Of a DNA stretch of 64,000 bases, positions 23,630 through 37,291 are shown piece after piece. The notes below the pieces were generated by a model, which did not search any database, was not told the origin of the DNA, and was given only the letters and a program-made list of their open reading frames with translations. A program made the position numbers and the translations under genes. The stretch is from Candidatus Aegiribacteria sp. MLS_C (GTDB lineage: Bacteria; Fermentibacterota; Fermentibacteria; Fermentibacterales; JCC-6). Every line of letters begins with the position of its first letter. Positions within the stretch are counted from its first letter, which is position 1. The stretch lies in the NCBI GenBank assembly GCA_002030045.1, contig LQBI01000035.1, forward strand, positions 1 to 64,000, read 5' to 3'.

Positions 23630-23742
23630 GGGGACGGAGGGATCACCTCACGTCCCCAAAGGAGCCTGGAGTTTGCACACAAACTCCCGAGCTCAAGTAA
23701 AAAAGGGACGGAGGATACACCTCACGTCCCGTTTACTTGAGC
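23630..23742. repeat. Three REP-like palindromes
   Basis: The first palindrome pairs GGGGACG (23630-23636) with CGTCCCC (23651-23657), extended inward by GAGG/CCTC. The second is a perfect 8-bp stem, GGAGTTTG/CAAACTCC, at 23668-23687. The third pairs GCTCAAGTAAA (23691-23701) with TTTACTTGAGC (23732-23742) and encloses GGGACGGAGG...CCTCACGTCCC. The first and third share the GGGACGGAgG core, which also occurs in the inverted repeats of the transposase element near 33.6 kb. Short frames here are non-coding. Confidence 0.75.
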
Positions 23743-23750
23743 CGTGGCGG

Positions 23751-23928
23751 GCGAATGAGGGAGGTCCCTCTTCTTGCATGGCAAGGGTTTGGTGGGCGAA
23801 TGAGGGAGGTCCCTCTTCTTGCATGGCAAGGGTTTGGTGGGCGAATGAGGGAGGTCCCTCTTCTTGCATGGCAAGGGTTTGGTGCGAATGAGGGAGGTCC
23901 CTCTTCTTGCATGGCAAGGGTTTGGTGG
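23751..23928. repeat. 45-bp tandem array repeating the tRNA-Val 3' end
   Basis: Four direct copies begin at 23751, 23796, 23841 and 23884, with lengths 45, 45, 43 and 45. Read on the reverse strand, the unit junctions spell the tRNA acceptor end TTCGCCCACCA, followed by AACCCTTGCCATGCAAG and a palindromic GAGGGACCTCCCTC. The third copy has lost two bases, giving TTCGCACCA. The array abuts the true tRNA 3' end directly. Translated frames through it are low-complexity artefacts. Together with the palindromes it fills the 362-nt gene-free stretch 23561-23922. Confidence 0.92.
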
Positions 23929-23999
23929 GCGAAGAGGGACTTGAACCCCCGACATCCTGCGTGTAAGGCAGGCACTCTAGCCAGCTGAGTTATTCGCCC
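23923..23999 (-). tRNA. tRNA-Val (UAC)
   Basis: A 77-nt cloverleaf: acceptor GGGCGAA pairs with TTCGCCC, then discriminator A and an encoded CCA (23923-23925). The anticodon arm is CCTGC-CTTACAC-GCAGG, so the anticodon is TAC (UAC), reading Val. The T-arm holds GTTCAAGTC. It is transcribed leftward into the tandem array. Confidence 0.97.
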
Positions 24000-33694: not shown

Positions 33695-34720
33695 TCAGTT
33701 ATACAGCCTGTTTGAAAGCTCTTCGATGACAGAATGATAATCACTCCTTGTCGAATACCTCAAAGCTGATTGGCGGACTGCTTCGGGAGTGACACCTAGC
33801 AATTTTGCACAATCAGACAGCTTTATACCAATCAGATTAAGCAGAGCATAAGATGCACATTCTCTTGCCTGTTTGACTGCTTTTACCCGTGAGCCAGAAG
33901 AGAGCATCTCGTATGGGATTCCCCATTCTTTGGACACGAAACCCAGAATTGCTTCTATCAATTCGTGCTGTTTGCTGCGGTTCCTGAGATGGCCATTGTT
34001 CTGATGCTGAATTATCCTGTAGATCCTTTCAGCAAAATTCCTTTCGCCCAGAATTCGAAACTGCGCGTGGGATTCCATCCCTCCTTTTCCATTATGCTCG
34101 ATTGTCTGAATACCGTGGTTTCCCAACGCGAAATTTCCGTTTTCCAGCATTTGATCGTTCTGATAGTACTCTTCAAGCCGCATGAAGGAGTTATAAGCAA
34201 CCAGCTGGGAAGCTTCATCGCTGCCAAACTCGGATAGAACCCTTTTCCTGTCCTGCCATGGGTATTTACCGGGTCTTGCAATCTCTATATGGCTGGTCCA
34301 TGGATAAGAATCCAGGCAGTTAACAGACCTGACCATGTTCGCTTTGACAGGATTCAAATGAATATACTTCACTAGCTTATGCATATAGCCCTCTGATTGA
34401 ACTAGTATTGAACGGTATCGGTTCTGGAAGAGATATCCTGTTCTGGAGTATTTTTTGTTAAAATGAACCGCATGGCCGGTAAGGAGTTTCTGCATGAATT
34501 TGCTGAGAGGAATATCATTCGTAATTGCAAGGATGTGTATGTGATTCGGCATTATGCACCATGCTATAACACTAACGCCAGTTTCGAGAACACAGTTACC
34601 CAGTCTATCAGCAAATGATTCTTTGTCTTGTTCAGAACGGAATATTACACTTTTCTCAATGCCTCTGGCCATCACGTGATGCAGAGCGTTTTTCCAGTCT
34701 ATACGGTGTATTCTTGGCAT
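33695..34720 (-). CDS. REP-associated tyrosine transposase (IS200-like Y1)
   Basis: The 341-residue protein starts MPRIHRIDW, typical of the TnpA-REP family. It has the HUH metal motif MPNHIHILA near 67 and a catalytic-Tyr helix YMHKLVKYIHLNPVKANMV near 114. The family cuts and joins single-stranded DNA at palindromes. A C-terminal DnaA-like helix-turn-helix (SDCAKLLGVTPEAVRQSA) probably binds DNA. I chose ATG 34720 over the 34813 extension because of family homology and an upstream GGAGG. Codon use is AT-rich, unlike its neighbours. Confidence 0.93.
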   Translation of the reverse strand: MPRIHRIDWKNALHHVMARGIEKSVIFRSEQDKESFADRLGNCVLETGVSVIAWCIMPNHIHILAITNDIPLSKFMQKLLTGHAVHFNKKYSRTGYLFQNRYRSILVQSEGYMHKLVKYIHLNPVKANMVRSVNCLDSYPWTSHIEIARPGKYPWQDRKRVLSEFGSDEASQLVAYNSFMRLEEYYQNDQMLENGNFALGNHGIQTIEHNGKGGMESHAQFRILGERNFAERIYRIIQHQNNGHLRNRSKQHELIEAILGFVSKEWGIPYEMLSSGSRVKAVKQARECASYALLNLIGIKLSDCAKLLGVTPEAVRQSALRYSTRSDYHSVIEELSNRLYN

Positions 34721-34830
34721 GGTAATATCATTTTCCTCCGAATCAGGAGTTTTGTCAACCCCTTTGAAATGAATTTGATATTGCTGCATAAGAAAACCAT
34801 GAATAGCATCCATACAGGCAGGTTGTCAGT

Positions 34831-34882
34831 AACTTGATGAAATTAGGTCCGTCCCTGATTCTTTAGGTCCGTCCCTGATTCT
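34831..34882 (-). repeat. Right 28-bp inverted repeat plus 20-bp tandem direct repeat
   Basis: The inverted repeat occupies 34831-34858. TTAGGTCCGTCCCTGATTCT then occurs twice head to tail at 34843-34862 and 34863-34882, ending at the last bases before the priA stop. The extra copy suggests slippage or a second insertion event. Confidence 0.95.
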
Positions 34883-37291
34883 TCAAAGGAGGTTGTGGGG
34901 GTCGATGTCGATGTCCAGGCGGACACCGCCGGAGGAGATCTTCTCGTGTCTTTCCCGAAGCAGCCCGGCGAGACGGCCCAGCTTTTGTCTTGAAGCCGAG
35001 CGTGCGATCGCATTCCATCGCCATCTACGGTTGATCCTGGGGAACGCGGCCTCCGCTGGTTCCGAAAGCATTACACCGTCCATCTCCATTCCATTCAGGG
35101 CCTTCTCCGCCGCTCGCTGGACCCTCTTTGCGTCGAGCCCGCTCCAAACGAACCTCACCAGGTGGCCGAATGGAGGGTAACCGAACGTTTTCCTGGCCCT
35201 GCTCTCCATCTCCCAGAAAGCCCTGAAGTCGTGCTCGGATGCCGCTTTTATGACAGGGTTCCTTACATCGTAGGCCTGTATCAGGACCTCTCCCGGGAGT
35301 CTTCCCCGTCCGGAGCGCCCGGCCACCTGCAGGATCAACTGGAAGGTTCTCTCGGCGGCGCGGAAGTCCGGGAACGCAAGCCCCATGTCCGCCGCCACGA
35401 CGCCCACGAATGTGACGCTGGGAAAATCGTGGCCCTTCGCCACCATCTGAGTACCCAGCAGAACGTCCCCGTCACCCGAGGCGAATGCACTGAGGATTCG
35501 CCAGTGAGCGTCCTTCCCCCTGGTGGTGTCCGCGTCCATCCTCATCACTGAGAGTCCGGGAATGGAGCTCTTCAGCGTTTCCTCGACCTTCTGAATGCCG
35601 GGTCCCATATGCGAGAACTCGTTGAAGCCGCATTCCGGACAGGTCCGCATGGCCGGCTTCCAGAATGAGCAGTAATGGCACCTGAGCACCCGTCCCTTCC
35701 TGTGGTATGTCAGAGTGACGCCGCAGTTGGGGCATTCCTCACGGTGTCCGCAGTTCCTGCACATCTGGGTGGGTGAGAAACCCCTGCGGTTGATCAGGAC
35801 TATGCTCTGCTCACTGCGCTTCCTTCGCACCTCGATGGAGTCCAGGAGTTCACTAGAGAGGATGATGTCACTTTCACGGTCCTGCTCAACTATCCTCGTT
35901 ACGGGCAGCGGTATTCCGTCAACCCTGTCCGGAAGCTCCAGAAGACGGTACCGGCCCCCCATCGCGTTACCGTAGGACTCCATGGAAGGGCTGGCCGAAC
36001 CCAGCAGGACCGGGACCCCGGCGATCCTGCCCCTCAGGACGGCCAGGTCCCTTCCGTTGTAGTGCGGAAGCTCGTCCTGCTTGTAGCTGGAGTCGTGCTC
36101 CTCGTCAACGATTATCATGCCCAGATCCCTGAGGGGAGCGAACACCGCGCTCCTGGGTCCGATGGCTATCCGTCTCCTGCCGGACCTGATGAGGTTCCAG
36201 CTGTCCAGCCGTTCACCGGGACTCATGCCGCTGTGCAGCACCGCGACCTGTCCCGGGAACCTCCGGCTGAAACGGGATACCGTCAGAGGGGTGAGGGATA
36301 TCTCCGGGACCATTACGAGCGCCGAGAGGTCATTCGAGAGCACCTTCTCTATGAGCCTCAGGTAGACCTCCGTCTTGCCGCTGCCGGTGACTCCGTGGAG
36401 CAGAAAGACACCGCGCCGGTCAAGCGTACCGCTGACACCGGCGATAGCCTCCAGCTGGGCTCCGTTCAGTTCGATGCCGCCCCGGGCATCCCCCATATCT
36501 CCGGCAAGCCGGGGTTCGCGATACCTTCGGCGCCTGCTCTCCCTGACCAGTCCCTTCCGTACGAGGGCATCCAGGGACGCTGCCGGGGCTCCCGAAGAAC
36601 GAAGCAGGGAAGACCTGTCCACGGGACCCTCCCTGGTGGCCAGCTGAAGCAGTAGCTCGGCCTGCCTCGGGGCCGCGGCTTTCAGGGACTGAGCCCTGCG
36701 TACCAGCACATCGGCCTCCATGGCAGGTTCGACGATCCTCTCGGTAACCGGTCTGGGACCCGAGACTGAACGCCAGTATACGGTCAGGATCCCGGACTTT
36801 TCCAGGGAGGCAAGTGCTTTCTCCAGGGGATAGTTGCTGTCCAGGCTGTCCCGGAGGACAGAGACGCCGACGGTCCCGGCGGAGGGCAGCAGGGGGCTGA
36901 GAGGATGGGAGGGATCGAGGTCCCCGATCAGCTCCACCACTCTCTCCACCCTGCCGGAGATCCCGGGCGGGTGTGCCGCCGCCATCATCATTCCTGGAGG
37001 GGCGCAGTAGTATTCGGCGGCCCATCGTACCATCCGCATCACATCGGGAGGCAGGAGGGGGGCCGAATCGAGACGTTCCAGGACCTCCCTTATCTCCATT
37101 CCCACGGCGGGAACCGGGGCTTCCTCCTTCCAGACATAACCGACCAGCCTGTCGCTGCCGAAGGGTACGGCCACCCTGCAGCCCGCCATGTCGCCGCCGC
37201 ACATTCCTGCCGGTATGGAATAAGTGAAGGTCTGCCACAGGGGACGGTTCAGTGCAACCTCAACCAGCCTGCCTTCGGGTTTGTCCTTCAA
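34883..37291 (-). CDS. priA: Primosomal protein N' (replication restart helicase PriA)
   Basis: The 802-residue superfamily 2 helicase has a DNA-binding N-terminal part, Walker A GVTGSGKTEVYLRL near 299, DEEHDSSYKQDE near 400 and two zinc sites between about 516 and 560 (CRNCGHREECPNCG, CHYC, CPECG). It reloads the replisome at stalled forks. TTG 37291 overlaps the upstream amidohydrolase stop by 4 nt. Its stop is next to the transposase element's repeats. Confidence 0.95.
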   Translation of the reverse strand: MKDKPEGRLVEVALNRPLWQTFTYSIPAGMCGGDMAGCRVAVPFGSDRLVGYVWKEEAPVPAVGMEIREVLERLDSAPLLPPDVMRMVRWAAEYYCAPPGMMMAAAHPPGISGRVERVVELIGDLDPSHPLSPLLPSAGTVGVSVLRDSLDSNYPLEKALASLEKSGILTVYWRSVSGPRPVTERIVEPAMEADVLVRRAQSLKAAAPRQAELLLQLATREGPVDRSSLLRSSGAPAASLDALVRKGLVRESRRRRYREPRLAGDMGDARGGIELNGAQLEAIAGVSGTLDRRGVFLLHGVTGSGKTEVYLRLIEKVLSNDLSALVMVPEISLTPLTVSRFSRRFPGQVAVLHSGMSPGERLDSWNLIRSGRRRIAIGPRSAVFAPLRDLGMIIVDEEHDSSYKQDELPHYNGRDLAVLRGRIAGVPVLLGSASPSMESYGNAMGGRYRLLELPDRVDGIPLPVTRIVEQDRESDIILSSELLDSIEVRRKRSEQSIVLINRRGFSPTQMCRNCGHREECPNCGVTLTYHRKGRVLRCHYCSFWKPAMRTCPECGFNEFSHMGPGIQKVEETLKSSIPGLSVMRMDADTTRGKDAHWRILSAFASGDGDVLLGTQMVAKGHDFPSVTFVGVVAADMGLAFPDFRAAERTFQLILQVAGRSGRGRLPGEVLIQAYDVRNPVIKAASEHDFRAFWEMESRARKTFGYPPFGHLVRFVWSGLDAKRVQRAAEKALNGMEMDGVMLSEPAEAAFPRINRRWRWNAIARSASRQKLGRLAGLLRERHEKISSGGVRLDIDIDPHNLL

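Follow-up and report, generated by a model that had tools for sequence, protein, structure and literature searches.

A tandem array of short tRNA 3'-end units behind tRNA-Val in Candidatus Aegiribacteria, and tRNA-anchored sites of similar layout in the same genus

Introduction

What kind of element is only a few dozen nucleotides long, stands directly behind a tRNA gene and closes with a copy of that tRNA's own 3' end? tRNA genes are common bacterial integration targets, and repeats of tRNA 3' ends are usually taken as scars. Four such units follow one another behind tRNA-Val of Candidatus Aegiribacteria sp. MLS_C (assembly GCA_002030045.1), within the window analyzed here, a stretch of 64,000 nt (contig LQBI01000035.1, positions 1 to 64,000). 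A sequence-only reading of this window offered slippage, repeated integration at a tRNA attachment site, or a source of processed small RNAs as explanations. The nature of the RtT repeats, which lie behind tRNA genes of E. coli, is a long-known puzzle.

Results

Structure of the tRNA-Val array

The tRNA-Val gene, with anticodon TAC and an encoded CCA, lies at 23923..23999 on the minus strand (ARAGORN; Rfam RF00005, 68.1 bits). Directly 3' of its CCA, on the same strand, the array spans 23745-23922; TRF reports a period of 45 and 4.4 copies over 23745-23939. The tRNA-proximal unit 1 (23880..23922) is 43 nt long, with two C missing in its acceptor copy (CGCACCA); unit 2 (23835..23879) and unit 3 (23790..23834) are 45 nt each and exactly alike; the distal unit 4 (23745..23789), also 45 nt, ends in GCCA and abuts the ancestral flank CGGCTC, as recognized from the empty site of the relative G006 (L011). 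The consensus of the units is AACCCTTGCCATGCAAGAAGAGGGACCTCCCTCATTCGCCCACCA. The four tandem units of 43-45 bp that the sequence-only reading had described were confirmed, but its span of 23751-23999 had included the tRNA and dropped 6 nt of the last unit. Of its statement that each unit repeats the acceptor end with ACCA, the 3'-end copy was confirmed in every unit, and the ACCA terminus fails in unit 4.

The copy that closes each unit comprises about 20 nt of the tRNA 3' end, that is, the T-stem 3' strand, the acceptor 3' strand and CCA. It was located on the minus strand at 23880..23895 in unit 1 and at 23835-23852, 23790-23807 and 23745-23762 in units 2, 3 and 4, respectively, and begins 27 nt past the CCA of the tRNA, with no gene cargo between. 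Running from T-stem to CCA, it reads TCCCTC-A-TTCGCCC or TCCCTC-A-TTCGCCCACCA, with one A inserted, and reaches a local alignment score of 30, where 0.07 tRNAs per genome are expected at a score of at least 24. Ahead of it, every unit contains GAAGAGGGAC (23897..23906, minus strand, in unit 1), the exact 10-nt reverse complement of GTCCCTCTTC in tRNA-Val (p 0.001 in shuffles), so that an inverted T-stem and acceptor piece precedes the direct copy. When tRNA-Val is folded together with one unit, the inverted piece is predicted to pair with the tRNA's own T-stem/acceptor strand, for which the downstream copy substitutes. Each unit also has two hairpins, CTTGC-CAT-GCAAG and GAGGG-ACCT-CCCTC, and one unit folds at -13.1 kcal/mol compared to -6.5 ± 1.8 for shuffles (z -3.6), in agreement with the small hairpins noted in the sequence-only reading.

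Past the array, a terminator-like palindrome (GGGACGTGAGGTGTATCCTCCGTCCC) with a run of T after it was picked out by eye at 23699..23730 on the minus strand; a simple scan called no promoter or terminator near the array, this palindrome included. With a putative terminator in this place, the array would belong to the tRNA trailer. It is probably carried in the 3' trailer, in which it would be transcribed with the tRNA and trimmed off during tRNA maturation. A palindrome pair, GGGACGTGAGGTG..CCTCCGTCCC, adjoins the array within 23630-23730 of the window, and tandem copies of a similar element, with periods of 67 and 72 bp, follow tRNA-Arg(TCT) and adjoin tRNA-Leu(CAA) in the same genome.

An assembly artefact, which the sequence-only reading had named as its refutation, would agree with the contigs of relatives, many of which end less than a few hundred bases from a tRNA or a site of the kind described below, as if repeats had broken the assemblies. 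The tRNA-Val units differ from one another, however, the array is well away from either end of its 153-kb contig and has unique flanks, and short-read assemblers are likelier to collapse repeats than to invent them. An artefact is therefore extremely improbable, and the array is real.

The tRNA-Val locus in related and distant genomes

Although tRNA-Val is 99% identical across most of the genus, the copy-number comparison proposed by the sequence-only reading found no array in any of the genus relatives fetched. In G006 (L011), the tRNA-Val CCA is directly followed by CGGCTC, the bases that follow the last unit in MLS_C, and the flanks of the two genomes align (ACTTGAGC..GCAAACTCCA; 0/2000 shuffles equally good). 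This precise empty site indicates that the units sit exactly where the tRNA ends. Among 42 genomes of the class, the unit body was found four times (up to 3 mismatches), each time at this locus, which favors origin in place followed by tandem amplification rather than repeated arrival. The earlier interpretation is partly supported: slippage or tandem expansion fits four near-identical copies of a body that is found nowhere else in these genomes. The array had no match in phages.

A broad scan for tandem tRNA-Val 3' ends, which took in 84,980 genomes, returned 23 matches, only one of them behind a tRNA. This independent case is a Saccharibacterium (L141), in which two 58-bp units follow tRNA-Leu(CAA) and repeat its 3' end. 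The other 22 matches were rejected, having no tRNA at the repeat and looking like coding or other repeats. In two genomes of the same order (L026, L027), tRNA-Val is followed by tandem palindrome arrays of 95-96 bp that show no clear tRNA-end copy.

Copies of tRNA 3' ends at other tRNA genes

Four of the 47 tRNAs of MLS_C (Val-TAC, Gly-GCC, Lys-TTT and Gln-CTG) have a match to their own 3'-terminal 22 nt in the 400 nt that follow, where 0.07 are expected from swapped tRNAs. Gly-GCC is followed by 94-bp units, in which a terminator hairpin is joined to about 50 nt that close with the Gly 3' end, and Lys-TTT by a single 66-bp insert, while Ser-CGA provides a fifth case, with a perfect 20-nt copy approximately 2.4 kb downstream. 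The corresponding counts elsewhere in the genus are 4/31 (G015), 1/33 (G006), 0/47 (G010) and 0/44 (G004), and outside the genus 0/42 (G021) and 0/39 (G027). Behind tRNA-Leu(CAA) of G021 (L327) there is a 3'-end copy of tRNA-Arg(ACG) rather than of the tRNA itself.

A conserved site type in the genus

At 11 tRNA isoacceptors of the genus we found a covarying site of about 110 bp with a 20-nt copy of the 3' end of the host tRNA behind it. The site body, which is common to Lys, Glu, Ser, Arg and Gln, has, often after a terminator hairpin, an inverted T-arm (GATTCGGACC or GATGAGAACC); many sites have a further hairpin, TTTGATC-GAA-GATCAAA, and the conserved REP-like block is GGTGAGTTTACCCTGAGCGAG..CGAGTCGAAGG. 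At several sites the inverted T-arm was no better than shuffles. A 20-base core is present in 16/19 genus genomes and never when reversed; in a search of the class, two further genera of the family were also positive and other genera were negative. Searches of viral contigs and plasmids gave no match to the sites. In 43/62 distinct sites, the 20 nt that follow agree with a tRNA 3' end at 16 or more positions, almost always at one offset, compared to 0/62 after shuffling, and the copy is the end of the upstream same-strand tRNA in 24/25 sites that have such a tRNA in the fetched DNA. In the two site helices 96.4% of cells are paired, with 29 cells changed on both sides vs. 9.0 ± 2.5 in shuffles.

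The site core had no match at the Val array, where the conserved GGTGAGTTTACCCTGAGCGAG..CGAGTCGAAGG block is missing. That the Val unit is homologous to the REP-like sites was considered and is unsupported, since the alignment is no better than shuffles (p 0.3-0.8); with the block missing, membership in the homologous site family is likewise unsupported, and the unit is assigned to its class by layout rather than by homology. In G016 (L126), a degenerate tRNA-like 3' end precedes two unlike units, of which the second is a REP-like site, and both units end in tRNA-like GGGTACCA tails.

Empty stacks and gene cassettes

At many tRNAs of the genus, insertions, whether or not they carry cargo, have this related layout with its added REP-like hairpin at their downstream ends. 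Lys, Glu and Ser-GCT all show precise empty sites. Behind tRNA-Ser(TGA) there is a cargo-less tandem pair of 85-bp units in G013 and one unit in G015, and no unit in MLS_C, G010, G006 or G004. Gene cargo stands between tRNA and repeat at both Gln and Ser of MLS_C. Behind its tRNA-Gln come a first site, two genes and a second site (C2:245176-247875), the genes encoding a FlgD_ig/sorting-domain protein and a DUF4143/AAA_14 ATPase, and the DNA past the second site aligns with the DNA directly after tRNA-Gln in G010, a precise empty site. If the Gln cassettes are mobile, the circle would close through GAATCCCTGCCCGCCAGCCA. Four sites with Gln 3' ends extend over 10.3 kb behind tRNA-Gln(CTG) of G011, with one to several genes between them.

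ORFs that adjoin sites in G001, G002 and G016 have an N-terminus closely similar to that of the Gln-cassette ATPase of MLS_C. The cargo further includes secretion sorting-domain proteins, Phd/ParE and MazE/PIN toxin-antitoxin pairs and a Fic protein, as well as a reverse transcriptase in G002. No integrase was found among 30 scanned proteins of the cargo regions.

Candidate enzymes

Tyrosine recombinases are encoded in every genus genome searched, and several relatives have integron integrases (TIGR02249, 340-403 bits with a cut-off of 265) of about 400 aa with an N-terminal extension. In L455, L461, L465, L466 and L469, this extension measures approximately 90 residues, the gene is often near a contig end, and an attI-like TAACAATNATTA lies upstream. 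In MLS_C there are four PF00589 matches. Two of them (281 and 316 aa) were scanned against NCBIfam, gave an XerA-like best match below the TIGR02249 cut-off, and include no integron integrase; the other two are assigned as XerC/XerD by score and length only.

Genomes apparently with an integron integrase hold more sites (Mann-Whitney p 0.003), a comparison that is confounded by kinship and completeness and in which the groups were set by PF00589 match lengths, with an NCBIfam check on part of the proteins. Given this confounding and the integrases' own attI-like TAACAATNATTA beside them, we did not adopt the integron integrase as the enzyme of the tRNA-end sites. Counterparts of the XerA-like recombinase encoded at C30:7250 occur in the relatives examined; as one of them, G004, yielded no site, this enzyme is only a candidate. 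No link of any recombinase to the tRNA-end sites was found. Elsewhere in the window, 33695-34813 encodes an IS200-like Y1 transposase with a DnaA C-terminal-like domain (RAYT-like), and a perfect 20-bp tandem repeat lies just upstream of it at 34843-34883.

Repeats behind tRNA-Tyr genes of E. coli

Behind tyrV of E. coli MG1655, 19-nt copies of the tRNA's 3' end recur at a spacing of 178 bp, and behind tyrT there is one 3'-end copy at 175 bp. The units contain GGGGAAGGGTGAGAACCTTCG or a close variant, which is the inverted T-arm of that tRNA; the TGAGAA change within it is also present in the Aegiribacteria genus, and GGATGAGAACCTTCG aligns (p 0.002). These repeats constitute Rfam RtT (RF00391), are annotated as RtT/RttR RNA, go by the names sRNA RttR and tpr, and occur at 1-14 places per genome in E. 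coli genomes with a match. RtT had no match in the window at gathering cut-offs, nor at the genus loci tested up to an E value of 10, whereas the E. coli control scored 133-138 bits.

Discussion

We hold, with modest confidence, that the Val array is a cargo-less tRNA-3'-end unit of RtT-like layout, belonging to the class of cassette boundaries, that arose in this species and was tandemly amplified to four. The first unit would have originated where tRNA-Val(TAC) of this species ends, with a small hairpin first, then the inverted T-stem and last a direct copy of the T-stem and acceptor 3' strands with CCA, and tandem duplication by unequal recombination or slippage may then have raised the number of units to four. 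Because such a unit ends in a direct copy, the tRNA 3' end stays intact and the displaced end reappears on the far side.

Based on this layout and on the place of the units, it is plausible that the Val array works like the cassette-boundary sites. Both follow CCA, have the order hairpin, inverted T-arm and copy, and close with the 3' end of the host tRNA, and some of the genus sites likewise form cargo-less stacks; in contrast, the GGTGAGTTTACCCTGAGCGAG..CGAGTCGAAGG block is theirs, and many of them bound cassettes, whereas the Val units bound none. The RtT repeats resemble the Val units in standing directly behind a tRNA, in ending each in a tRNA 3'-end copy and in holding an inverted T-arm (GGGGAAGGGTGAGAACCTTCG in E. 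coli, GAAGAGGGAC at Val), and their copy number is variable; they differ in their 178-bp units, perfect 19-nt copies, Rfam-recognizable RNA and small ORF, compared to 43-45 bp and no RtT match at Val.

A replication error with no tie to recombination sites or cassettes would be another account of the array: a template switch at the T-arm hairpin could have given the inverted and the direct copy in one step, since fold-back switching can yield both, and slippage would have multiplied them. The unit body that is unique to the Val locus and the near-identity of its copies fit this scenario. We nevertheless regard it as unlikely, though a serious contender, because the layout recurs at many tRNAs, including those of E. 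coli and a Saccharibacterium, with CCA at the end, and because a conserved, covarying body common to the genus sites is not expected from one-off errors. The same near-identity, together with a body confined to one locus in 42 genomes, argues against a trans-acting recombinase having made separate insertions of four minimal cassettes at a tRNA-Val attachment site. Such insertions could draw on the genus sites, with their 20-nt copies matching the upstream tRNA in 24/25 cases, on the cassette arrays of up to four sites at tRNA-Gln and on the precise empty site there, but no recombinase could be linked to these sites, integron integrases in the genus adjoin their own attI-like sequence, and none was among the MLS_C recombinases scanned. 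We consider repeated integration improbable at Val; such integration is well supported at other tRNAs of the genus, with their precise inserts bounded by 3' ends, with or without cargo. Still less probable is an array maintained by selection, whose trailer would release serial small RNAs with tRNA-like 3' ends as proposed for the E. coli RtT RNA. Its hairpins are stable (z -3.6) and its layout is shared with an annotated sRNA, RttR, yet the array is missing from the relatives searched and neither the window nor the genus loci gave an Rfam RtT match.

Among known mobile systems, additive flexible genomic islands and tRNA-targeted gene cassettes come close (PMC5217437, PMC7771536, PMC10872708), although the available parts of these papers mention neither a conserved hairpin site that covaries and has an inverted T-arm ahead of the repeat, nor one site type that serves many tRNAs. 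Judged as an additive tRNA island, the Val locus has the precise empty site in a relative (G006, as G010 for Gln) and no gene cargo between tRNA and repeat. The genus cassettes resemble those of integrons in being small and stacked with hairpin sites between them, in carrying toxin-antitoxin pairs and in the lack of a recombinase among the 30 scanned cargo proteins. They differ in being anchored at a tRNA gene, with a site ending in the tRNA 3' end, and the integron integrases of relatives adjoin a separate attI-like sequence. The REP-like hairpins of the genus and the RAYT-like Y1 transposase in the window recall REP/RAYT systems, but no link was found between the RAYT and the array or the sites. 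Copying of 20 nt of a tRNA is not known from REP insertion.

It is conceivable, if rather doubtful, that all of these elements belong to an integron-like, tRNA-anchored cassette system, in which a recombinase supplied in trans would use a conserved hairpin site, combining an inverted T-arm and a tRNA-end copy, to insert small gene cassettes at tRNA 3' ends and to remove them, and for which cargo-less stacks such as the Val array and the RtT repeats at E. coli tyrT would be empty or relic forms. What the data establish in one genus is a conserved, covarying site type ahead of a tRNA-end copy at 11 isoacceptors, which is sometimes empty and sometimes bounds stackable cassettes. If the link to RtT is true, the question of what the RtT repeats are becomes testable, and gene gathering without an integrase in each cassette would join integrons and islands.
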